From contig NZ_JADBEK010000001.1 of the NCBI RefSeq assembly GCF_014873145.1, positions 9,114,001-9,178,000 on the forward strand: a stretch of 64,000 bases of DNA, in the 5' to 3' direction. Numbering within the stretch: the first letter of the stretch is position 1; the number at the start of each line of letters is the position of its first letter. The notes beneath the pieces were generated by a model. That model saw only the letters and a program-made list of their open reading frames with translations. It searched no databases and was not told the origin of the DNA. A program made the translations under genes and the position numbers. Shown here one piece after another: positions 21,074 through 31,984 of the stretch. The DNA is from Nonomuraea angiospora (GTDB taxonomy: Bacteria > Actinomycetota > Actinomycetes > Streptosporangiales > Streptosporangiaceae).

Positions 21074-22516
21074 TTACTGTTTCTTACATATGTTCTGCAT
21101 TGCCGTTTTGGTGGTCGGAGTAACACCCGGTTTCGCGGACGGCATGGAAGTCGACTTGGATTTCGCGATCTTCGGCTGGTCGCTGCCGACGATCACCTCG
21201 ATGCCCTTGACGTCGGCCTTGTCGAGCTCGGCGCCCGGGATGGCGGCGGCCACGACCTTCGCCTCGTCCTCCTGCCCCGCGCCGTAATGGATGACCGTCT
21301 TCTTGTAGTCCTTCTTGGTCGTGTTGCCGGGCTCGCCGGGGACCTTGAAGCCGTAGGCGACCAGCCCGTCCTTGGTGCGGGCGCCGAGACCCGTGATGAG
21401 CGTGCCGTTCTTGACCTTGACCGTGATGCTGCCGGGCGGGATGGCCGACGGCTTGACCGAAGGAGTGGGCGAGGGGGAGACGGCGGGCTTGCTCAGGTCC
21501 TGGTCCGCGTTGATCCTCGCGAACATGTCGCGGGCGGCCGGCTTGTCCCACAGGACCGCGGACTCGCCCGTGGGCGCCTTGAAGTCGACGTTGGACAGCG
21601 GCACCTCGGCGAAGCGCACGTCGTCGAGCGAGACGTCGCGCATCTGGGTGGCCAGGCCGAGCAGCCCGTCGTCGGGGTCGACCTTGACCGTGCTCAGCGT
21701 GGAGTTGACGAACGAGGCCAGCTTGGCCGGGTTGGCCAGGGTGTCGGCGCTGAGCGCCCGGTTGAGCAGGGCCGAGATGACCTGCTGCTGCCGGTCGATG
21801 CGGTCGAGGTCGGAGCGCGCGGTGGCGCGGGTGCGGGCGTAGCCGAGCGCCTGCACGCCCTGGAGCTGGTGGGTGCCGGCGGGCAGGTTGAGCCCGGTCT
21901 TGGGGTCGTTGATCGGCGCGGGCGTGCAGACGGTGACGCCGCCGAGGGAGTCGACGACGTCGATGAAGCCGAGGATGTTGACCTCGATGTAGCGGTTGAT
22001 CTGCAGCCCGGTGGTGGCCTCGACGGCCTCCTTGGTGAGCTTGGGCCCGCCGAACTGGTACGCCGAATTGATCTTGTGTTCGCCCTTGCCCGGGATCGTC
22101 GTCCAGGTATCGCGCGGCAGGCTCACCACGGTGACCCGCTTGTGGTCCTCCGACAGGTGGATGACCATCATGGTGTCGGTGCGCTGGCCGGCCTCGCGGC
22201 CCAGCTTGAGCCGGTTCTGCTGCTGGCGGGTGAGGTCGTCGCGCTTGTCGACGCCGACCAGCAGGATGTTCTCGGCGCCGCGGGCCGCGGGCACGGTCAC
22301 CCCGGCGTCGACGGTGCCGATCTGGCGCGGGGTCGCCCACACCACGCCGGTGGCGACCAGGACCCCGGTGGACAGGAACCCGGCGACGAGCACGTTGCGA
22401 CGGCGCGCCTTGGCGCTCCTGACCGGCCTGCGGGGACGCGTGGGCGCGAGCTTGACGCCGCCGTAGGCGTCGCCGCCCACGAGCACACCGCCGTCCTCCT
22501 CGCCCGGGTCGCGCAT
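21074..22516 (-). CDS. LCP (LytR-CpsA-Psr) family cell-wall glycopolymer ligase, first copy
   Basis: 480 residues. A basic cytoplasmic N-terminus is followed by one transmembrane helix (about 43-62). The LCP catalytic domain (about 80-240) has ENILLVGVDKRDD, RTDTMMVIHLSEDHKRVTVVSLPRDTW and QALGYARTRATARSDLDRIDRQQQ; the Asp/Arg residues bind Mg and the pyrophosphate of a lipid-linked polymer. The C-terminal LytR_C domain (about 355-450) starts SITVKVKNGT. LCP proteins transfer teichoic acid or other glycopolymers from the lipid carrier to peptidoglycan. The gene is divergent from a GT2 gene at the left border of the polysaccharide region. A second LCP gene lies at 35.4 kb. Confidence 0.93.
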   Translation of the reverse strand: MRDPGEEDGGVLVGGDAYGGVKLAPTRPRRPVRSAKARRRNVLVAGFLSTGVLVATGVVWATPRQIGTVDAGVTVPAARGAENILLVGVDKRDDLTRQQQNRLKLGREAGQRTDTMMVIHLSEDHKRVTVVSLPRDTWTTIPGKGEHKINSAYQFGGPKLTKEAVEATTGLQINRYIEVNILGFIDVVDSLGGVTVCTPAPINDPKTGLNLPAGTHQLQGVQALGYARTRATARSDLDRIDRQQQVISALLNRALSADTLANPAKLASFVNSTLSTVKVDPDDGLLGLATQMRDVSLDDVRFAEVPLSNVDFKAPTGESAVLWDKPAARDMFARINADQDLSKPAVSPSPTPSVKPSAIPPGSITVKVKNGTLITGLGARTKDGLVAYGFKVPGEPGNTTKKDYKKTVIHYGAGQEDEAKVVAAAIPGAELDKADVKGIEVIVGSDQPKIAKSKSTSMPSAKPGVTPTTKTAMQNICKKQ

Positions 22517-22596: not shown

Positions 22597-23616
22597 ATGA
22601 AGCAGTTCCCCGACTCGCCGCAGGCCCCCGCGGAGACGCGTGCCTGGCCCCCTATCTCCGTCGTCATGCCGGTCCTCAACGAGGAGCGGCACCTTCGCGA
22701 GGCCGTCGACCAGGTCCTCGCCCAGAGCTACCCAGGTGAGATCGAAGTCGTGCTCGCCGTGGGTCCGTCCCAGGACCGCACCCAGGAGGTCGCCGACGCC
22801 ATAGCGGCGGCCGACCCGCGGGTGACGGTCGTGCCCAATCCGACGGGCCGCACCCCCAACGCGCTCAACGCCGCCATCGCCGCCTCGCGCAACGGCATCA
22901 TCGCCCGGGTCGACGGGCACGCCATGCTGCCCCCCGACTACCTGCGCGTCGCCGTCGAGACGCTGGCCGAGACCGGCGCCGACAACGTGGGCGGCGTCAT
23001 GGCGGCCGAGGGCATCACGCCGTTCGAGCAGGCCGTCGCCTGCGCCATGACGTCCAAGATCGGCGTGGGCGCCGCCGCCTTCCACGTGGGTGGCACCGCG
23101 GGCCCCGCCGACACCGTCTACCTGGGCGTCTTCCGCCGCTCGGCGCTCGACCGGGTGGGCGGCTACGACGAGCACTTCCAGCGGGCGCAGGACTGGGAGA
23201 TGAACCACCGCATCCGCCAGAGCGGCGGGCTGGTCTGGTTCCAGCCGCGCATGCGGGTCTCCTACCGCCCCCGCCCCAACGTCAAGGCCCTGGCCAAGCA
23301 GTACTTCCACTACGGCAGGTGGCGGCGCGTGGTCGCGCGCACCCACGAGGGCACGATCAACCTGCGCTATCTGGCGCCGCCCGCCGCGGTGCTGGCCATG
23401 CTGCTCGGGCTGGTCGTCTCGCCGTTCTTCCCCTGGGCGCTCATCGTCCCCGGCGGCTACGCCGTCGCCATCGTGGCGGGCTCGGCGGTGACGGGCAGCG
23501 GGCTGCCCCCTGGGGCGCGGCTGCGGCTGCCGATCGTGTACGCCGCCATGCACTGCTCCTGGGGCTGGGGCTTCCTCACCAGCCCGAAGAAGCTGGCCAG
23601 GCCGCCCGGGTCATGA
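22597..23616 (+). CDS. membrane-associated GT2 glycosyltransferase (ExoA-like)
   Basis: 339 residues. GT-A domain (about 15-250) with PPISVVMPVLNEERHLREAV, the metal-binding-type motif ARVDGHAMLP and the acceptor-site QDWEMNHRIRQSGG. The C-terminal part has two or three hydrophobic helices (about 270-320). The pattern resembles succinoglycan ExoA, which adds a sugar to a polyprenyl-linked chain. GTG at 22585 is an alternative start; a -10-like TACAGT is at 22576. Its stop overlaps the convergent TagF-like gene by 6 bp. The nucleotide sugar is unknown. Confidence 0.87.
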   Translation: MKQFPDSPQAPAETRAWPPISVVMPVLNEERHLREAVDQVLAQSYPGEIEVVLAVGPSQDRTQEVADAIAAADPRVTVVPNPTGRTPNALNAAIAASRNGIIARVDGHAMLPPDYLRVAVETLAETGADNVGGVMAAEGITPFEQAVACAMTSKIGVGAAAFHVGGTAGPADTVYLGVFRRSALDRVGGYDEHFQRAQDWEMNHRIRQSGGLVWFQPRMRVSYRPRPNVKALAKQYFHYGRWRRVVARTHEGTINLRYLAPPAAVLAMLLGLVVSPFFPWALIVPGGYAVAIVAGSAVTGSGLPPGARLRLPIVYAAMHCSWGWGFLTSPKKLARPPGS

Positions 23617-25347
23617 CCCGGCGAAGACCCGCTCGACGGCGGCGTCGAAGCGGGTCAGCGCGTCCGGATATTCCGCCCCGAACAGGTGGCTCCTGAGCTT
23701 GATCCTGGCCCGGGCCAGCGTGTCCTCCCCGTCGAGGAACTCCGCGAGCCCGGCCAGGTCCTCCCCGATCAGCACGCCCGCCTCGGTGCTGGGGTAGCGC
23801 TCGTGGAAGGCGCGCTCGTCCAGGCCGGCGACGTTCGTCACCGCGTACGGCTTCTCGCTGGCCAGGAAGTCGGCCACGACGCTGGAGATGTCGCTGATCA
23901 GCAGGTCGCACTGGTTGAAGCAGTCGTACAGGTGCGGCTCGGGGCCGGTGACGATCAGGTGCTCGATCCGCGGCGTCTCCCCGGTCGCCCGCGACGGGTG
24001 CCTGGCCTTCGACTTGGCCAGCTCGGCCGCCTCGATCATGGTCACGATCTTCCGGTGCGCGCGGGTGGCGCTGCGGTCGCGGTGACCGGTCAGCGGGTGC
24101 GGCTTGTAGATCACGCGTACCCGCGGCCGGTGGTCCAGCAGCGCCCGCACGATGCGCGGGCCCATGGTGATCAGCGAGGTGTGGAACAGGTCGTCGTTCC
24201 AGCCCTCCCAGGTGGGGGCGTACAGGACGGTGCGGTACGGCAGCCGCGGCCCCTCCGTCGAGATGCCTTCGAGCTGCGGCCGGCCGACCTCGTGGATGCT
24301 CTCGTCCCTGACGCCCACCCTGGCCCGGCGGTAGCGGTCGCGGCCCGCGGGACCGGCCACCCACACCTCGTCGTAGACCCGGGAGAACGGGTTGAACGAC
24401 GCCTCCTTGTCGCTGTCGCCGTGGTTGAGGAACGCGCTGCGCAGGGTCGGGATGCGCAGCATGTGGACGTTGCGGCCGACGTTGGAGACGTACAGGCAGA
24501 GCTTGGCGCTGGACAGGGCGCGGAAGCTCATCAGGTCGGCCGCGGACGGGATGCACAGCATCGGCAGCGTGGTCGCGTCGAGGTGGTTGGCCATGCCGCG
24601 CTCGCGCAGCACGACGATGGCGCGCCGGCCGATGCGCTCCAGCGTGGGCAGCCACATCCTGGCCTGGTAGGCGGCCGCGGTGGCGCCGGAGAAGTAGAGG
24701 ATGACCTCGGGCCGGTACTTCTCGACCTGCTCGCCCACGACCGCCAGCACCCTGGCCTTGTCGGTGAGCGGCGTGGCGCGGCGCACGTACGGGATGAGCG
24801 CGAGAGCCCCCGCGGTGCCCAGCAGGACCGCCAGACCGGCGCCGATCGCGGCGGGCACGGCGCCGACGGCCGCGCCGAGCACCGGCAGCGCGTCAAGGTA
24901 GAGGAAGCGCACGCTGCGGCTGTCGCGCAGGAACGGCGGCGGCATCTTCGGGATGCGCAGCGCCGAGACGTCGAGGTTGCGGGTGGTCACCGGCATCCGG
25001 CTGAGCGTCCCCTTGAGCCGCAGCGCCAGCGCCGTGTGCCCGGCCCGCACCACGTGGATCGCGAAGATGCCCGACGCCAGCGCCACGAACCACGGCGAGT
25101 CGACCCCCGCCATCCGCGCCACCAGCAGCAGCGCCATGGTCTCCCTGGCGGCGAAGCGCAGCGTGACCCCGAGGTGCACCCTGCCGAGCAGCTCGGGCAG
25201 CGGTCTGGCGGCGCGCGAGGCCGCGTACTCCACCGCGTAGGAGAGCGCGGCGACCGCCCCGAACACCACCGGAGCGGGCCAGAGGGCCGACCACAACAGC
25301 GTGGGGTAGCAGCCGAGCAGGGCCGCGATCACGATGAGTCTCCTCAT
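23611..25347 (-). CDS. CDP-glycerol/CDP-ribitol glycerophosphotransferase family protein (TagF/TagB-like teichoic acid polymerase)
   Basis: 578 residues. An N-terminal third with four or five hydrophobic helices is followed by a soluble Glyphos_transf domain (about 215-570) typical of TagB/TagF/TarL. Visible motifs are ILYFSGATAAAYQAR, VLYAPTWEGWNDD, VRVIYKPHPLTGHRD (catalytic-region histidine) and CDLLISDISSVVADFLASEKPY. Such enzymes add or polymerise glycerol- or ribitol-phosphate from CDP-alcohols onto a lipid-linked acceptor. The gene directly upstream is a TarI/IspD-like cytidylyltransferase, 41 bp away, which would make the CDP-alcohol. ATG at 25347 is preferred; TACTGT eight bases before it fits a leaderless start. 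A TTG at 25365 is possible. Confidence 0.88.
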   Translation of the reverse strand: MRRLIVIAALLGCYPTLLWSALWPAPVVFGAVAALSYAVEYAASRAARPLPELLGRVHLGVTLRFAARETMALLLVARMAGVDSPWFVALASGIFAIHVVRAGHTALALRLKGTLSRMPVTTRNLDVSALRIPKMPPPFLRDSRSVRFLYLDALPVLGAAVGAVPAAIGAGLAVLLGTAGALALIPYVRRATPLTDKARVLAVVGEQVEKYRPEVILYFSGATAAAYQARMWLPTLERIGRRAIVVLRERGMANHLDATTLPMLCIPSAADLMSFRALSSAKLCLYVSNVGRNVHMLRIPTLRSAFLNHGDSDKEASFNPFSRVYDEVWVAGPAGRDRYRRARVGVRDESIHEVGRPQLEGISTEGPRLPYRTVLYAPTWEGWNDDLFHTSLITMGPRIVRALLDHRPRVRVIYKPHPLTGHRDRSATRAHRKIVTMIEAAELAKSKARHPSRATGETPRIEHLIVTGPEPHLYDCFNQCDLLISDISSVVADFLASEKPYAVTNVAGLDERAFHERYPSTEAGVLIGEDLAGLAEFLDGEDTLARARIKLRSHLFGAEYPDALTRFDAAVERVFAGS

Positions 25348-25388: not shown

Positions 25389-26141
25389 CTATCTGGGCAA
25401 GTCGGAGATCGGCGGGGTTGCGGCGAGCTGGAGGAGCAGCTCGGCGATCCTCAGGTCGAGGGGGTGGGTGACCTTGATGTTGTGCTCGCTGCCCGGCACG
25501 AGGTGGATCGGCACGTCGGGCAGGTAGCGCAGCACCACGCCGCAGTCGTCGGTGGCCGGGCGGCCGGCGAACCCGGGGTCGGCCAGCGCCCGCTCGTACG
25601 CCTCGCGGATCACCGAGAGCCGGAAGCACTGCGGCGTCTGGCTGCGCCGCAGCACCGACCTGTCCAGCACGTCGCCGATCACCTCGCCGCCGGGGCCCGG
25701 CGCGGCCACGAGGACCGTGTCGGAGCTCGGGATCGCCACGTTGACGGCCGAACGGGTCTCCAGCGCCTTGACGCACTCGGTGATGATCCGGGGCTCCAGG
25801 AGCGGGCGTACGGCGTCGTGCAGCAGCACGTTGCACTCCTCGGCGCCCAGCGCCCCCAGGGCCAGCCACGTGCTCTCGGTGCGGCTCGCGCCCCCCTCCA
25901 CGACCTTGCTCACCTTGTCGTAGCCGCCCTTGTCCACGATCTCGCGGACCCGGTCGGTGTAGCCGGGCGTCATCAGCACCACGATCTCGTCGATCTCCGG
26001 CGCGTTCTGGAACACCGCCAGCGAGTGCTCGATGATCGGCTTTCCGGCGACCTCGATGAGCTGTTTGGGGGTGTCCATCCCGATCCGTTGCCCCACGCCG
26101 CCCGCGAGAAGCACCCCGACCGACCGCAACCGTGAATCCAT
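25389..26141 (-). CDS. TarI/IspD-family cytidylyltransferase, probably for a teichoic-acid alcohol phosphate
   Basis: 250 residues with the IspD/TarI fold. The CTP loop is VGVLLAGGVGQRIGMDTPKQLIEVAGKPI (region 7-35), followed by LLHDAVRPLL, the signature RRSQTPQCFR and ATDDCGVVL. IspD makes CDP-methylerythritol; TarI makes CDP-ribitol. No ispF or other MEP gene is close, whereas a TagF-like polymerase follows 41 bp downstream in the same operon, so a CDP-ribitol-type product is favoured. The ATG at 26141 (MDSRLRSVG) begins the conserved domain; the frame is open to 26213 without family sequence. Biochemical proof of the substrate is not possible from sequence. Confidence 0.85.
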   Translation of the reverse strand: MDSRLRSVGVLLAGGVGQRIGMDTPKQLIEVAGKPIIEHSLAVFQNAPEIDEIVVLMTPGYTDRVREIVDKGGYDKVSKVVEGGASRTESTWLALGALGAEECNVLLHDAVRPLLEPRIITECVKALETRSAVNVAIPSSDTVLVAAPGPGGEVIGDVLDRSVLRRSQTPQCFRLSVIREAYERALADPGFAGRPATDDCGVVLRYLPDVPIHLVPGSEHNIKVTHPLDLRIAELLLQLAATPPISDLPR

Positions 26142-26252
26142 ATCGGCAGCGTAACGGTCCTGTTCCGTGATTCCGCCTTGACCTGTCGCTACGCTGTGCC
26201 TACGCACCCCCAAGCCACGCGGCTCCCGCGCGACCGGGAGGAGACCTGCGCT

Positions 26253-27668
26253 TTGCCCGACTCATTGACCCGCGAGACCACGGCCACCTCGGTCGTCGTG
26301 CTCGCCACGACCCCGGCATGCAAGCTCTCCAGCTCCGACGGCACCTTGCTCGACCGCGTCACCGACCAGCTCGCCACGCTGCCCGTGCGCGAGATCCAGG
26401 TGGTGACGCCGGGTGGCGGCCTCGGAGCCGACCTCAGAGGCGTCGCCCGGATCGCCAGGATCTCCACGGGCGCGGTGGCCGTGCTCCCCGCGGACCTGGT
26501 GGCCCACACCGAGGCGCTGGCGCTGCTGCTCGACCATCCCGCGCGCGGCAGCGGGGCCCTGGTCTCCTACGAGGCCGCCGCGACGCCCATGCGACCGCCC
26601 GTCCGCGTCGAAGGCGGCAAGATCGTCGCCGCGGGCAGCTCGTTCCACGTGGTCCCCGAGGCCAACGCCACGTTCAGGGGCGTGCTGAAGGCGGGCGAGG
26701 CCGACCTGGGCGCGCTGGCGGACATCGCCGAAGAGCTGGCCGAGCTGGCCGACACCGGCAAGCTGGGCCCGGTCACCCCCGTGGAGGCCGTCGACCTGCT
26801 GCTGGTCGGGCTGGTCAGATCGGGCGTGCCGGTGCGGGCGGCCGGGATCGGGCCGCTGCACGCCGACCGGGTGACCGGCCAGATCGCCGCCGACACCGCC
26901 GTCGCCCGGCTGGCCGAGGTCGACGAGGCCAAGGTCAGGCTCGACCTGTCCATCAAGGCGGACGACGGCTTCTTCGCCACCTTCTTCGTCTCCACCTGGA
27001 CGCGCCACCTGCTCAAGCCGGCGGTCCGGCTCAAGCTGGCCCCCAACACCGTCACCGGCGCCTCGATCGGGCTGGCCGCGCTGGCGGCCCTCTGGTTCTC
27101 GGAGGGCAGCCAGGGCGGGCGGCTGGCGGGGGCGCTGCTGTTCTACCTGTCGTTCGTGCTCGACTGCCTCGACGGGCAGCTGGCCCGCTACACGCGCACG
27201 TTCTCGCCGCTGGGGGCGTGGGCCGACGGCATGGCCGACCGGCTGAAGGAGTACGCCGTCTACGTCGGCCTGGCCCTGGGCTTCGCCGGCGCAGGCATCT
27301 GGCAGCTCGCCGTGGCCGCCATGATCCTCCAGGTCGTACGGCACGCCATCGACCAGAGCTACGCCGGGGCCCGCACCGACGCCGCCCGCGTCGGCGCGCA
27401 GTGGGGGCGTCCCGCGCGCTCCCTCCTGGAGTCGGCCGACGGCAGCCGGACCCGTGGCGTGCTCGGGCTCGCCCAGCGCCTGGAGGGCGACGCGATCGCC
27501 CGCTGGATCAAGAAGAGCGTCGTGCTGCCCATCGGCGAGCGCACCGCGCTGATCGCCGTCACCGCCGCGGTCTGGAACGCCAGGGTGACGTTCCTGTCCC
27601 TGCTCTGCTGGGGCGGCGTGGCGGCCCTCTATCAGCTCGCCGGACGGATCGCGAGGTCGGCACGGTGA
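26253..27668 (+). CDS. two-domain CDP-alcohol phosphotransferase with degenerate nucleotidyltransferase-like N-terminus
   Basis: 471 residues. The N-terminal 210 residues look like a worn NTP-transferase (TSVVVLATTPACK, AVLPADLVAHTEALALLLDHP) lacking the GxGxRLRP loop. The C-terminal half is a membrane CDP-alcohol phosphotransferase with the full motif LDCLDGQLARYTRTFSPLGAWADGMADR, that is D-x2-D-G-x2-A-R-x8-G-x3-D-x3-D. The layout recalls archaeal/thermophile inositol-phosphate cytidylyltransferase/DIPP synthase fusions. Start: TTG at 26253, because GGGAGGAG ends nine bases upstream; no ATG or GTG fits. It opens a tight five-gene run to 30914 and overlaps the next gene as GTGA. Substrates unknown. 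Confidence 0.85.
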   Translation: MPDSLTRETTATSVVVLATTPACKLSSSDGTLLDRVTDQLATLPVREIQVVTPGGGLGADLRGVARIARISTGAVAVLPADLVAHTEALALLLDHPARGSGALVSYEAAATPMRPPVRVEGGKIVAAGSSFHVVPEANATFRGVLKAGEADLGALADIAEELAELADTGKLGPVTPVEAVDLLLVGLVRSGVPVRAAGIGPLHADRVTGQIAADTAVARLAEVDEAKVRLDLSIKADDGFFATFFVSTWTRHLLKPAVRLKLAPNTVTGASIGLAALAALWFSEGSQGGRLAGALLFYLSFVLDCLDGQLARYTRTFSPLGAWADGMADRLKEYAVYVGLALGFAGAGIWQLAVAAMILQVVRHAIDQSYAGARTDAARVGAQWGRPARSLLESADGSRTRGVLGLAQRLEGDAIARWIKKSVVLPIGERTALIAVTAAVWNARVTFLSLLCWGGVAALYQLAGRIARSAR

Positions 27669-28288
27669 TTTCGGTCCACATGACTCCCGTCCCCAGCAGC
27701 ACGGTCGTGGCCTACCGCGACGACGGCCCGCTCTCGCGCGCCATGGGCATGCTCGTGGCCGGGCAGCTCCCGCCCCTGCCGCCGGTGATCGCGGGCACGT
27801 TCGTCACGGGCGTGCTGCTGCTGCTCGGCGTGGCGGGCACGGACGGGCTCGCGATCTTCGCGCCCGCCGTGACGCTGCTGCTGGCCGGGCCGGGCAGCAC
27901 GCACGCGCACGACGGCAGGTTCGACTGGCTCGTCCCGCCGATCCTGCGGCTCATCGAGTACACCTTCGTCGCGGCGTGCGGGTTCGCCCACGAGGTCCAC
28001 CCCGTGGTGATCTTCCTGCTGCTCGGCGCGCTGGCGTTCCACCACTATGATCTTGTTTACCGGCTGCGGCAGCGCGTGTACGCGCCGGCGTGGCTGTCCA
28101 CGGCCGGCCTCGGCTGGGACGGCCGGATGATGGTGGTCTCCCTGGTCGCCCTCACGGGCTGGCTGACCGGCGGTTATCTGCTGCTCGCGCTCTACCTGTG
28201 GGCGTTCTTCGGCTGGGAGAGCCTCACGTGCTGGCTCGCCGCGCCCCGCTCCGGGGTGGAAGCACCCGATATGGGAACGCAAGACTAA
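27665..28288 (+). CDS. DUF5941-type membrane protein
   Basis: 207 residues, GTG start overlapping the previous stop (GTGA). About five hydrophobic segments (near 35-55, 62-78, 95-120, 150-170, 172-190) contain HAHDGRFDWLVPPILRLIEYTFVAACG and FHHYDLVYRLRQRV. I recall this sequence as the DUF5941 domain, often fused to the C-terminus of CDP-alcohol phosphotransferases in Streptomyces; here it is separate. Conserved His/Asp/Arg residues near the membrane (HAHDGRFDW, HHYDLVYR) could bind a phosphorylated lipid. Function unknown, probably an accessory to the enzyme before it. Confidence 0.75.
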   Translation: MISVHMTPVPSSTVVAYRDDGPLSRAMGMLVAGQLPPLPPVIAGTFVTGVLLLLGVAGTDGLAIFAPAVTLLLAGPGSTHAHDGRFDWLVPPILRLIEYTFVAACGFAHEVHPVVIFLLLGALAFHHYDLVYRLRQRVYAPAWLSTAGLGWDGRMMVVSLVALTGWLTGGYLLLALYLWAFFGWESLTCWLAAPRSGVEAPDMGTQD

Positions 28289-28365
28289 CGCCGGATTACC
28301 CGCTCAGGGCCCAAAGACGAATACTCTTTGGGCTCACGAAGACATGCTCGACTGAGGAGTGCACG

Positions 28366-29100
28366 TTGCTGGGAATGGTTCTGGCCGCTGGAGCCGGACG
28401 ACGTCTGCGGCCGTACACCGACACGTTGCCGAAGGCGCTCGTGCCGGTCGACGGCGAAACCACGATCATGGACATCTCCCTGCGCAACCTCGCCGAGGTG
28501 GACCTGCGGGAGGTCGTGGTCGTCGTCGGTTACGCGGCGCAGGCCGTCCACGACCGCAAGGAGGCCCTGGAGCAGCGGCACGGCGTCAAGCTGACCCTGG
28601 TCCACAACGACAAGGCCGAGGAGTGGAACAACGCCTACTCCCTGTGGTGCGCCCGCGACTACTTCTCCCAGGGCGTGCTGCTGGTCAACGGCGACACCGT
28701 GCACCCGGTATCGGTCGAGAAGACGCTGCTGTCCGCTCCCGAGACGAGCGACATCCTGCTGGCCGTCGACGACGTCAAGAAGCTCGCCGACGAGGAGATG
28801 AAGGTCACGCTCTCGCCGGAGGGCTCGCTGCGGCGCATCACCAAGCTGATGGACCCGGCCGAGGCGTACGGCGAGTACATCGGCGCCACCCTCATCCGGC
28901 CCGGCGCGGCCGACCGGCTGGCCGACGCGCTCAAGACGACCTTCGAGCGTGACCCCCAGCTCTACTACGAGGACGGTTACCAGGAGATGGTCGAGCGCGG
29001 CGAGGCCATCCACGCCGCGCCCATCGGCGAGGTCGACTGGGTCGAGGTGGACAACCACGACGACCTGGCGAAGGCTCGCACCATAGCCGTCCGCTACTGA
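28366..29100 (+). CDS. sugar/alcohol-phosphate nucleotidylyltransferase
   Basis: 244-residue NTP-transferase. The activating loop GMVLAAGAGRRLRPYTDTLPKALVPVDG is intact, unlike the degenerate copy in the first gene of the cluster. Other features are HNDKAEEWNNAYSLWCARDYF and VNGDTVHPVS (metal Asp), and the C-terminal GEVDWVEVDNHDDLAKA. The WNNAYSLW segment is typical of the LicC/IPCT-like group that makes CDP-choline or CDP-inositol, so a CDP-alcohol product is plausible. TTG at 28366 has GAGGAG six bases upstream and keeps the conserved LLGMVLAAG; ATG at 28375 is possible. It lies 77 bp after the DUF5941 gene and 10 bp before the dehydrogenase. Confidence 0.85.
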   Translation: MLGMVLAAGAGRRLRPYTDTLPKALVPVDGETTIMDISLRNLAEVDLREVVVVVGYAAQAVHDRKEALEQRHGVKLTLVHNDKAEEWNNAYSLWCARDYFSQGVLLVNGDTVHPVSVEKTLLSAPETSDILLAVDDVKKLADEEMKVTLSPEGSLRRITKLMDPAEAYGEYIGATLIRPGAADRLADALKTTFERDPQLYYEDGYQEMVERGEAIHAAPIGEVDWVEVDNHDDLAKARTIAVRY

Positions 29101-29110
29101 GGGGGCGCGC

Positions 29111-30169
29111 ATGCCGCTTCTAGCGAGGATGCTCCCGGCGCCGCTGACCATGCAGGTGAGGCGGGGCGCGGTGGCCGAGCTCGGCGCCCTGCTGGCCGAC
29201 AGCCGGGTGGCCACCTCCGGCAGGGTCGCGGTGGCCGTCGGCCGCGGGCAGGGTGACCACATCGAGAGCTTGATCACACCTCAGCTCGACGAGGCCGAGG
29301 TGTTCAGGGTGGCCGACGGCTCGGTCGACGCGGCCGTCTCGCTCGGCGCCGACCTGCGCAAAGGCGCGTACGAGGTGGTGGTGGGCGTCGGCGGCGGCAA
29401 GACCATCGACGCCACCAAGTACGCCGCCTCGCTCGCCGGCATCCCGATGGTGGCGGTGGCCACCAACCTGTCCCACGACGGCATCTGCTCGCCCACGGCC
29501 TCCCTGGTCTACGAGGGCGGCAAGGGCACGTTCGGGGTGCCGATGCCGCTGGCCATCCTGGTCGACCTCGACTTCGTGCACAACGCGCCCGAGTCGCTGG
29601 TCAGGGCGGGCGTGGGCGACGTGGTGAGCAACCTGTCGGCCATCGAGGACTGGCAGCTCGGCAACGTCGAGCGCGGCGAGCCCATCGACGGGCTGGCCTG
29701 CTCGATGGCCCGCACGGCCGCCGAGGCGCTCATCGGCCGCGGCGACTCCGTCGAGTCCGACGCGTTCCTGACCGTGCTGGCCGAGTCCCTCATCCTGTCC
29801 GGCATGTCCATGGTGATCGCGGGGTCGTCCCGGCCCGCGAGCGGTGGAGATCATGAGATCCTTCATGCCGTGGATCAGCTCTTCCCCGGCACCTCCAACC
29901 ACGGCGAGCTCGCCGGGATCGGTGCCGCCTTCTGCTTCTTCCTGAGGGAGGACGAGGCCCGGGTCACGCAGGTGGTCGACTGCCTGCGCCGGCACAAGCT
30001 GCCCGTCGTGCCCGCCGACATCGGGCTGACCGGCCAGCAGTTCGCCGAGGCCGTCGCGCTGGCGCCGGCCACCCGCCCCGGCCGCTACACGATCCTGGAG
30101 CACCTGCGCATGCAGGACTCCGAGATCCACGATCGGGTGGGGGACTATGTCCGGGCCTTCGGTAGCTGA
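29111..30169 (+). CDS. sn-glycerol-1-phosphate dehydrogenase family protein (EgsA/AraM-like)
   Basis: 352 residues of the iron/zinc alcohol dehydrogenase superfamily. The NAD loop is VVGVGGGKTIDATKY, with NLSHDGICSPTAS next, and the metal ligands of the glycerol-1-phosphate dehydrogenases are visible as D170 (AGVGDVVSNLSA), H248 (SGGDHEILH) and H264 (SNHGELAG). These enzymes reduce dihydroxyacetone phosphate to sn-glycerol 1-phosphate, the archaeal lipid stereoisomer; B. subtilis AraM makes it for heptaprenylglycerol. Here the product could be activated by the neighbouring cytidylyltransferase and used by a CDP-alcohol phosphotransferase. The next gene overlaps it by 23 bp. Another polyol phosphate could be the true substrate. 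Confidence 0.88.
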   Translation: MPLLARMLPAPLTMQVRRGAVAELGALLADSRVATSGRVAVAVGRGQGDHIESLITPQLDEAEVFRVADGSVDAAVSLGADLRKGAYEVVVGVGGGKTIDATKYAASLAGIPMVAVATNLSHDGICSPTASLVYEGGKGTFGVPMPLAILVDLDFVHNAPESLVRAGVGDVVSNLSAIEDWQLGNVERGEPIDGLACSMARTAAEALIGRGDSVESDAFLTVLAESLILSGMSMVIAGSSRPASGGDHEILHAVDQLFPGTSNHGELAGIGAAFCFFLREDEARVTQVVDCLRRHKLPVVPADIGLTGQQFAEAVALAPATRPGRYTILEHLRMQDSEIHDRVGDYVRAFGS

Positions 30170-30914
30170 GATCCGGCGGGTCGCCCAGCCCGCCGGCCAC
30201 CTCGAGCGCAGAAACGGCGAGCACTGGGCCGGCGTGCTCTACATGCGCCGGCTGTCCATCTACGTCACCTGGATGTTCACCAAGACGTCCGTCACGCCCA
30301 ACCAGCTCACCTGGGTGATGACGGTGGCCGGGGTGCTGGCCGGGGTCGTGCTCGCCCTGCCGGGCCTGCTGGCCGCCGTGGCCGCGGCCCTGCTGGTGCA
30401 GGTCTACCTGCTGCTCGACTGCTCCGACGGCGAGCTGGCCCGCTGGACGGGGAAGACCTCGCCGGTCGGGGTCTACCTCGACCGGGTCGGGGCCTACTTC
30501 TGCGAGGCCGCGGTGCTGGCCGGGCTGGGCTGGCGCGCGTCGGCCGTCCTGCCCGACTGGTACACCGTGCTGGGCTTCGCCGCCGCGCTCGGCGCGATCC
30601 TCATCAAGGCCGAGACGGACCTCGTGGAGGTGGCGCGGGCCAAGGGCGGCCTGGCGGCCGCCACGGAGGCGGCCGCCGTGCAGTTCCGCTCCGGGCTCCT
30701 GGGCCTGGGCCGTCGGGTGCTGTCGGCGACGAAGTTCCACCGGATCGTCCAGCCGATCGAGCTGTCGTTGCTGGCGCTTGCGGCCGCCGTCGTCGACGTG
30801 ATCCTCGGTGACCTCACGGCCTCGCGGGTCCTGATCGTGGCCTGCTTCGTAGCGGCATGCCTACAGGTTGTCCTGCATTTGGTAAGCATCATCGCCTCGA
30901 AGCGACTGGCGTGA
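30147..30914 (+). CDS. CDP-alcohol phosphotransferase family protein lacking the fourth motif Asp
   Basis: 255-residue membrane protein with about six hydrophobic segments. The CDP-alcohol motif is D91-x2-D94-G95-x2-A98-R99-x8-G108-x3-D112, but the fourth acidic residue expected at 116 is Ala (YLDRVGAYF). The fourth Asp acts as the catalytic base in characterised enzymes, so this protein may use another residue or have a different role. It overlaps the dehydrogenase gene by 23 bp, so the two are translationally coupled. With the enzyme at 26253, the cluster has two such phosphotransferases. The 155-bp gap after it is rich in inverted repeats. Confidence 0.86.
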   Translation: MSGPSVAEIRRVAQPAGHLERRNGEHWAGVLYMRRLSIYVTWMFTKTSVTPNQLTWVMTVAGVLAGVVLALPGLLAAVAAALLVQVYLLLDCSDGELARWTGKTSPVGVYLDRVGAYFCEAAVLAGLGWRASAVLPDWYTVLGFAAALGAILIKAETDLVEVARAKGGLAAATEAAAVQFRSGLLGLGRRVLSATKFHRIVQPIELSLLALAAAVVDVILGDLTASRVLIVACFVAACLQVVLHLVSIIASKRLA

Positions 30915-31069: not shown

Positions 31070-31984
31070 GTGTTCTCAACGCGTCAGGACAGTGATTCGT
31101 TGAAGATCTCGTGCGTCATCCTCACCATGGGTAACCGGGTCGCGGAGCTGAATCGGGCGGTCGAGTCCGCGCTCAACCAGGTCGACGGCGACGTCGAGGT
31201 GGTGATCGTCGGCAACGGCGCAGATGTGCCCGAATTGTCGGCGACGCCACCCGAAGGGTCGTCCGCGGTCGTGAAAGCGATCCGGCTCGACCAGAACACG
31301 GGCATCCCCGCAGGCCGTAACCGCGGCGTGGAGGAGTGCTCGGGAGACGTCGTGCTGTTCCTCGACGACGACGGCTGGTATGCCAACCAGAAGGTCGTCG
31401 CGCACGTACGCGACCGCTTCGCCACCGAGCCGGACCTCGCGGTGATCTCCTTCCGCGTGATGGACCCCGACGGCGGCATCGGCCAGCGGCGCCACGTGCC
31501 CCGGCTGCGCGCCGGCGACCCGCAGCGCTCCTCGCCCGTCACGACGTTCCTCGGCGGCGCCTCGGCCATCAGGCGCTCGGCCTTCCTCCAGGTGGGCGGG
31601 CTGCCCGAGCGGTTCTTCTACGCCCACGAGGAGACCGACCTGGCCTGGCGGCTCCTGGGCGAGGGCTACCGGATCGAGTACGACGCCGAGACGGTGATGT
31701 ACCACCCGCAGGTCCCGCCGACCCGGCACGTCGAGTTCTACCGGCTCAACGCGCGCAACCGGGTCTGGCTGGCGCGGCGCAACCTGCCGTGGCCGCTGGC
31801 GTTCCTCTACCTCACCAACTGGGTCGTGCTCACCCTCGTGCGCGAGCGCGGGGCCGGGCCGGCGCTCAAGGCGTGGTTCCGCGGGTTCTTCGAGGGCCTG
31901 CGCACCCCGGCGGGCGAGCGGCGGCCCATGGCGTGGCGTACGGCGTGGCGCATGGTCAAGCTGGGCCGGCCGCCGATCGTCTGA
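31070..31984 (+). CDS. GT2 family glycosyltransferase (rhamnosyltransferase-like)
   Basis: 304 residues. GT-A fold with ISCVILTMGNRVAELNRAVESAL, NTGIPAGRNRGVEECSGDVVLFLDDDGWY (the DDD metal motif), FLGGASAIRRSAFLQVGGL and HEETDLAWRLLGEGYRI. It resembles WbbL-type and other single-sugar transferases acting on polyprenyl-linked acceptors. A hydrophobic segment near 240-258 may hold it to the membrane. The GTG at 31070 has no good ribosome site; TTG at 31100 (LKISCVIL) is an alternative close to the domain start. Donor sugar unknown. Confidence 0.87.
   Translation: MFSTRQDSDSLKISCVILTMGNRVAELNRAVESALNQVDGDVEVVIVGNGADVPELSATPPEGSSAVVKAIRLDQNTGIPAGRNRGVEECSGDVVLFLDDDGWYANQKVVAHVRDRFATEPDLAVISFRVMDPDGGIGQRRHVPRLRAGDPQRSSPVTTFLGGASAIRRSAFLQVGGLPERFFYAHEETDLAWRLLGEGYRIEYDAETVMYHPQVPPTRHVEFYRLNARNRVWLARRNLPWPLAFLYLTNWVVLTLVRERGAGPALKAWFRGFFEGLRTPAGERRPMAWRTAWRMVKLGRPPIV

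Follow-up and report, generated by a model that had tools for sequence, protein, structure and literature searches.

A run of six genes at positions 25389 to 30914 of a 64,000-nucleotide window from Nonomuraea angiospora (contig NZ_JADBEK010000001.1, positions 9,114,001 to 9,178,000; the 13.1 Mb genome is a single contig) contains a predicted nucleotidyltransferase gene (NT) followed at once by a gene for an EgsA/AraM-like dehydrogenase of the glycerol-1-phosphate dehydrogenase family (G1PDH), and comparison with other actinomycete genomes revealed that NT and G1PDH form one unit. The best single reading of this cassette, to which we assign a probability of roughly 0.53, is that it makes CDP-1-glycerol, and the locus in which it lies is very probably of the teichoic acid type, with an unusual donor-supply cassette. 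All six genes listed in the original prediction were found as open frames, as judged from Pfam matches and the frames themselves. An IspD-family cytidylyltransferase gene (25389-26141, minus strand) is divergent from five genes on the plus strand, which encode a worn nucleotidyltransferase domain joined to a CDP-alcohol phosphotransferase (CDP1, 26196-27668), a DUF5941 protein (27665-28288), NT (about 28366-29100, start codon uncertain), G1PDH (29111 or 29129 to 30169) and a second CDP-alcohol phosphotransferase (CDP2, 30147-30914). The tight packing claimed for these five genes was also found, with short gaps or overlaps of -23 to 56 bp: CDP1 begins 54 bp from the divergent IspD-family gene, and the spacings onward are -4, 56, 10 and -23 bp, taking the NT start as 28345.

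NT and G1PDH were each searched for in one sample of 197 Actinomycetes genomes. NT gave 48 matches (E <= 1e-20) in 47 genomes and G1PDH gave 49 strong matches (E < 1e-80), likewise in 47 genomes, after weaker G1PDH matches in 28 further genomes had been excluded as other dehydrogenases. Forty-six genomes were common to both, and in either exception (genomes G112 and G125) the match is located at the end of a contig. Of the 48 NT matches, 46 are followed on their own strand by a G1PDH match no more than 40 bp away, and 38 of these 46 close pairs show an overlap of 10 bp (distances taken between the ends of the matches, without stop codons); NT lacks a close G1PDH in G125 and in G107, the two genes being 10 kb apart in the latter. 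Conservation of gene order, a check that the original prediction had proposed for the five genes, was seen for this pair, and the arrangement recurs across many genera. In a phylum-wide sample of 198 genomes (NT at E <= 1e-15), NT was detected in 28 genomes; 20 of these lie beyond the Actinomycetes, where the identity is mostly about 30-38%. Five of the 20 outside-class loci were fetched, and the pair was present in three of them; locus L221 holds a distant NT alone, and the fifth, L219, also differs.

Among the eight NCBIfam families listed for the dehydrogenase, the G1PDH family NF002022 scored best (229 bits, compared with 63.8 bits for glycerol dehydrogenase), and the sequence match to PDB entry 4rgq reached 139.8 bits. 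The metal ligands that had been claimed for it, D170, H248 and H264 in the numbering of the 352-residue form (D164, H242 and H258 in the 346-residue form), stood up to alignment, both histidines being present in 14 of 14 sequences and the aspartate in 13, with a glutamate in the remaining one. Metal-site residues common to G1PDH structures (HDG..SP, DW, RP.SG..HE and HGE) are retained. Family membership and active-site motifs suggest dihydroxyacetone phosphate as the substrate and sn-glycerol-1-phosphate as the product. Likeness to the G1PDH family is also what would be seen if the enzyme fed an archaeal-type ether lipid, as AraM does together with PcrB in Bacillus subtilis; we rejected this route as highly implausible, given that PcrB scored over its cut-off in none of the 197 genomes, gave no match at E values up to 0.001 in the genomes carrying NT and/or G1PDH (module genomes), and would leave NT without a role.

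NT, a LicC/IPCT/PntC-like nucleotidyltransferase, carries the nucleotidyltransferase motif expected of COG1213-type cytidylyltransferases (LicC/IPCT/CpgD), whose residues are more than 97% conserved among 111 sequences. Its three best solved relatives, 1jyk (51.0 bits), 4jd0 (43.6 bits) and 6pd1 (37.7 bits), are CTP-dependent by name or record title. From these CTP-using relatives and the strict pairing with G1PDH we infer the step to CDP-1-glycerol, and propose NT as a CTP:sn-glycerol-1-phosphate cytidylyltransferase.

The setting of the pair was analyzed in 80 named loci, which are the best 80 of 588 confirmed loci ranked by G1PDH likeness, and hence a biased set with some members cut by contig ends. 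NT, CDP2 and a family-2 glycosyltransferase (GT2b) were found in all 80, DUF5941 in 75, a second family-2 glycosyltransferase (GT2a) and the IspD-family gene in 71 each, an LCP-family protein in 69, CDP1 in 60, a TagF-like protein in 31, a glycerophosphodiester phosphodiesterase (GDPD) in 28, TagH in 17 and TagG in 14. GT2b was accordingly added as the sixth gene of the set; in the window it occupies 31070-31984 on the plus strand (PF00535, 64.6 bits; start uncertain), 155 bp beyond CDP2. Single-linkage clustering was applied to 84 fetched loci, a few of which overlap and not all of which carry the module; 44 of them contained a TagG-like permease family and 42 contained a TagH-like ATPase family, and Pfam assigned ABC2_membrane and ABC_tran to the one TagG-like and the one TagH-like protein submitted. 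TagG and TagH are absent from the Nonomuraea locus maps, the rest of the window genome not having been searched for them. In family f20 the typical order is a fused CDP1-DUF5941 gene, NT, G1PDH, CDP2, GT2b, TagG and TagH; two things make f20 probably Streptomyces, namely the squalene/phytoene synthase-like, amine-oxidase-like and polyprenyl synthetase genes found nearby and the grouping of crtB, tagG, tagH and araM described for that genus (PMC13118837). The Nocardiopsis potens locus (L200) contains LCP, GT2a, GDPD, IspD, TagG, TagH, CDP1, DUF5941, NT, G1PDH, CDP2 and GT2b. It is this company of TagG/TagH-type exporters, LCP ligases, glycosyltransferases and CDP-alcohol phosphotransferases that argues for a teichoic-acid-type locus. 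The GDPD gene near the cluster in 28 of the 80 named loci (PF03009 in the one checked) would suit a reverse role, in which G1PDH oxidizes sn-glycerol-1-phosphate released by polyglycerolphosphate turnover and NT salvages it, but the strict coupling of NT and G1PDH beside exporter and ligase genes appears to fit synthesis better, and we consider salvage distinctly improbable.

TagF-like proteins (PF04464) were detected in 90 of the 197 genomes, in 46 of the 48 with NT and/or G1PDH versus 44 of the 149 others (Fisher test; p-value: 2.8e-17), this p-value and the one below being descriptive only because the genomes are related. TagD (TIGR01518) scored over its cut-off in none of the 197 genomes; at E < 1e-30 it matched in 13, none of which carries the module (Fisher test; p-value: 0.04). 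If G1PDH and NT supply CDP-glycerol, the pair would replace TagD.

The phosphotransferases bear on where the activated glycerol would go. The AlphaFold model of CDP1 (490 aa, mean pLDDT 84.3; PF01066, 49.2 bits) matched best 4mnd, a bifunctional IPCT-DIPPS protein, and Af2299. The worn N-terminal nucleotidyltransferase domain that had been read in CDP1 was recovered in this comparison, the model matching 4mnd and the sequence being devoid of the G-x-G-x-R...P-K motif. The phosphotransferase motif of CDP1, D1xxD2GxxAR...GxxxD3xxxD4, is complete, with D1, D2, G, A, R and D4 present in 67 of 67 sequences and the later G and D3 in 66. Af2299 is the best solved sequence match for both CDP1 and CDP2 (E 3.9e-11 for the latter). 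In CDP2 (PF01066, 36.3 bits) the aspartate D4, the catalytic-base position, is replaced in 123 of 126 sequences (histidine in 92, alanine in 31, aspartate in 3), and the other seven signature positions are kept in all 126.

The DUF5941 protein (PF19365, 82.9 bits) is predicted to adopt the fold of a CDP-alcohol phosphotransferase without the catalytic aspartates, one of the structure comparisons being limited to 335 chains ranked by Foldseek. This fold match replaced our consideration of it as an unrelated membrane protein. No aspartate motif of CDP-alcohol phosphotransferases was found among the DUF5941 conserved columns, and the hhalign comparison with the CDP2 profile was not significant (probability 0.3, E 0.19). 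The DUF5941-CDP1 profile match was significant, yet it covers only the DUF5941 part fused within the CDP1 alignment and was discarded as evidence of kinship for that reason. CDP1 and DUF5941 form a single fused frame in loci belonging to several families, and a second CDP1-DUF5941 pair occurs elsewhere in the same genome (G000:C1:10406274-10407571, L111), the stretch fetched around it containing no NT-G1PDH pair. The DUF5941 fold prediction and the loss of D4 in CDP2 are new here, neither having been found in the literature searched.

The domain order of CDP1 is that of Af2299 and IPCT-DIPPS, Af2299 is reported to bind CDP-glycerol (PMC4634129), and PMC8262930 cites, in its discussion, an activity from Archaeoglobus with a preference for sn-glycerol-1-phosphate. 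These likenesses would favor a soluble glycerophosphodiester, such as an archaeal glycerophosphoinositol-type osmolyte, or a small phospholipid head group as the product in place of a wall polymer. A soluble product needs no exporter, glycosyltransferases or LCP ligases, yet these are frequent neighbors of the cassette, and we judge such a product improbable.

Several observations weigh against the synthesis of CDP-1-glycerol by this cassette. The 229 bits of G1PDH do not reach the curated NF002022 cut-off of 413 bits, and its top PDB sequence match, 3ce9 (146.8 bits), is labelled a glycerol dehydrogenase, so the substrate could differ. The best NCBIfam matches of NT are UTP- or dTTP-using enzymes, namely AglF (70.5 bits), archaeal GlmU (64.8 bits) and RmlA (54.8 bits), with inositol-phosphate cytidylyltransferase next (48.7 bits) and all four far under their cut-offs, and guanylyltransferases appear lower among its ten PDB matches. 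As a consequence NT may use a nucleotide other than CTP, and our estimate for CDP-1-glycerol was set slightly lower because these NCBIfam matches are not CTP enzymes. The same scores speak for a different building block made in the same wall locus, in which case the dehydrogenase would act on another ketose phosphate and NT would activate the resulting polyol phosphate, a pentitol phosphate for instance, or would use another nucleotide. Clusters with ribitol-type fusions of IspD to a short-chain dehydrogenase share the CDP2/GT2b/TagGH core, and relatives of NT are described as acting on varied phosphates (CpgD, PMC12275187). We nevertheless regard another building block as unlikely, in view of the G1PDH metal-site residues that are kept and the far lower scores of other Fe-dependent alcohol dehydrogenase families.

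Other reservations about CDP-1-glycerol come from the distribution of the genes. In L219 the neighbor of NT is a TagF-like gene, and the stretch that was fetched contains no G1PDH; extra G1PDH copies occur without NT and in other surroundings (L072, L078 and L079). The TagF-like protein of the window is a weak match (32.9 bits); the absence of TagD depends on the threshold, even the 13 strong matches being below the family cut-off; and neither the TagF nor the TagD association is corrected for phylogeny. Weak TagD-family matches of 59-66 bits in five module genomes, all of f20 (G067, G085, G117, G170 and G180), are read as other cytidylyltransferases. Af2299, for its part, is described as probably acting in phosphatidylinositol-phosphate synthesis (PMC8633023). 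CDP2 (E <= 1e-15) was found in 62 of the 197 genomes; 42 of these carry the module and 20 do not, and CDP1, DUF5941 and GT2b likewise occur without NT-G1PDH. Conversely, six of the 48 module genomes gave no CDP2 match (G096, G123, G126, G136, G187 and G223). Four of these have another CDP-alcohol-phosphotransferase-like protein near the module, recognized by Pfam in L059 and L060 and by clustering alone in L057 and L061; no such protein was found in the fetched stretches of G096 and G136 (L051 and L049).

Three module-less loci (L097, L104 and L122) place the CDP2-TagGH core, mostly with GT2b, beside a long IspD and a TagF-like gene. Both long IspD proteins that were examined carry a fused short-chain dehydrogenase, and the loci look like the ribitol type. 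In three others (L096, L103 and L110) the core adjoins a different NT, only 28-29% identical. Because the same core accompanies these various partners, it seems to be common to different alditol routes, with NT-G1PDH as one interchangeable supply cassette. A divergent nucleotidyltransferase near the TagGH/CDP2 core was also noticed in the loci without G1PDH L096, L100, L103, L107, L108 and L110.

The divergent IspD-family gene (PF01128, 164.5 bits; TIGR00453, 173.9 bits) had been counted as a cytidylyltransferase of the set. An IspD/TarI-like gene is indeed present and divergent, but its membership in a glycerol-phosphate route is unsupported and was dropped: it is the sole strong IspD match of this genome, the next best reaching 41.4 bits with TIGR00453, and ispF adjoins a gene that we take, from the start of its sequence, to be CarD-like, with no ispD between them. 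In G099, too, it is the sole strong IspD match; in G160 ispD and ispF are neighbors. Being the only strong IspD in a genome whose ispF has no ispD neighbor, the gene may encode the isoprenoid enzyme. Its product shares 57-68% identity with the IspD portion of longer relatives and 33% with the G160 enzyme. Three of the longer relatives were checked and are fused to a short-chain dehydrogenase, which suggests a ribitol-type role in those relatives, and the window gene may be housekeeping, ribitol-type or both. The isoprenoid step has possibly been taken over by, or is shared with, a ribitol-type cytidylyltransferase in a wall-polymer locus.

On the other side of the IspD-family gene lie the TagF-like (Glyphos_transf) protein (23611-25347, minus strand; PF04464), GT2a (22597-23616, plus strand; PF00535, 83.5 bits) and an LCP-family glycopolymer-to-peptidoglycan transferase (21074-22516, minus strand; PF03816, 165.3 bits). 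An acetoacetate-decarboxylase-family gene (PF06314, 32006-32719) adjoins the cluster and is found in 46 of the 80 named loci. The farther flanks include an acyltransferase, a second LCP protein, a UDP-sugar dehydrogenase and a CofD-family gene.

In the pathway that we propose, the operon would be the donor-supply and phosphotransfer part of an actinobacterial locus for a teichoic-acid-type envelope glycopolymer. G1PDH would reduce dihydroxyacetone phosphate to sn-glycerol-1-phosphate, which NT would convert with CTP to CDP-1-glycerol. CDP1 (partnered by an inactive DUF5941), CDP2 and/or TagF-like polymerases would then transfer glycerol-1-phosphate to a lipid-linked glycan begun by the glycosyltransferases, and, judging from gene neighbors in relatives, the polymer would be exported by TagG/TagH and joined to peptidoglycan by LCP ligases. 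The original prediction of a CDP-activated polyol transferred to a lipid or glycan acceptor fits these findings, to which the context adds the wall-glycopolymer locus; the role given to the IspD-family gene and the claim of novelty had to be corrected. A 2026 synteny survey that refers to teichoic acid biosynthesis (PMC13118837) records in one Streptomyces region araM, tagG, tagH and crtB together with genes for a nucleotidyltransferase, a glycosyltransferase and a CDP-alcohol phosphotransferase, so the combination is in print as synteny. No functional study of the operon and no paper naming DUF5941 were found in the searches made of openly licensed PMC papers, and the mechanism and the module statistics were not found in print in the literature searched. 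A more specific version is tentative: that a dedicated CDP-sn-1-glycerol pathway builds an sn-1 wall or lipoteichoic polymer through a phosphotransferase hetero-assembly, in which DUF5941 is a dead partner and CDP2 lacks its catalytic base.

Wall teichoic acid loci of Firmicutes comprise TagD, TagB/TagF, TagGH and LCP proteins. The Nonomuraea locus resembles them in its proposed CDP-alditol donor and in its TagF-like and LCP proteins, and its relatives do so in TagG/TagH-type export, whereas module genomes have no strong TagD, the donor would come from G1PDH and a LicC-like NT, CDP-alcohol phosphotransferases are present, and the glycerol phosphate is predicted to be sn-1 and not sn-3. With Af2299 and IPCT-DIPPS of Archaeoglobus fulgidus it shares the fusion of a cytidylyltransferase-like domain to a CDP-alcohol phosphotransferase, CDP-glycerol being the donor reported for Af2299 (PMC4634129); it differs in the worn N-terminal domain of CDP1, the wall-polymer locus, the DUF5941 partner and a CDP2 without D4. 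The AraM-PcrB system of B. subtilis has a bacterial EgsA-family G1PDH in common with it, but there is no PcrB here and the product is proposed to be CTP-activated. NT resembles the COG1213 cytidylyltransferases CpgD of Caulobacter and LicC of Streptococcus pneumoniae, which use CTP and small phosphorylated substrates, and is unlike them in being paired with a dehydrogenase, its own substrate and nucleotide being read from sequence. The Streptomyces araM/tagG/tagH/crtB region holds the same gene families, and the available text of that survey offers synteny without a mechanism or a DUF5941 assignment (PMC13118837).

B. subtilis wall and lipoteichoic acids are reported to be enantiomers, sn-3 and sn-1 respectively (PMC7086022), and the available text of another paper places bacterial AraM notably in Bacillus without mention of Streptomyces (PMC13400652). 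Streptomyces hygroscopicus is described as having a polyglycerolphosphate lipoteichoic acid that closely resembles its own wall teichoic acid; clear LtaS orthologues were lacking among the actinobacterial genomes available in 2011, and the route was called open (PMC3196553). The proposed supply of mirror-image, archaeal-type glycerol phosphate to a wall polymer is a route that bacteria were thought to lack. If the tentative hetero-assembly is right, it would explain polyglycerolphosphate in actinomycetes without LtaS and TagD, and NT would supply a gene for a dedicated sn-glycerol-1-phosphate cytidylyltransferase. DUF5941 gains a predicted fold. If CDP-1-glycerol is made, the teichoic acids of actinomycetes could be sn-1 via a CDP route, and the making of polyglycerolphosphate without LtaS (PMC3196553) would become testable with two soluble enzymes.

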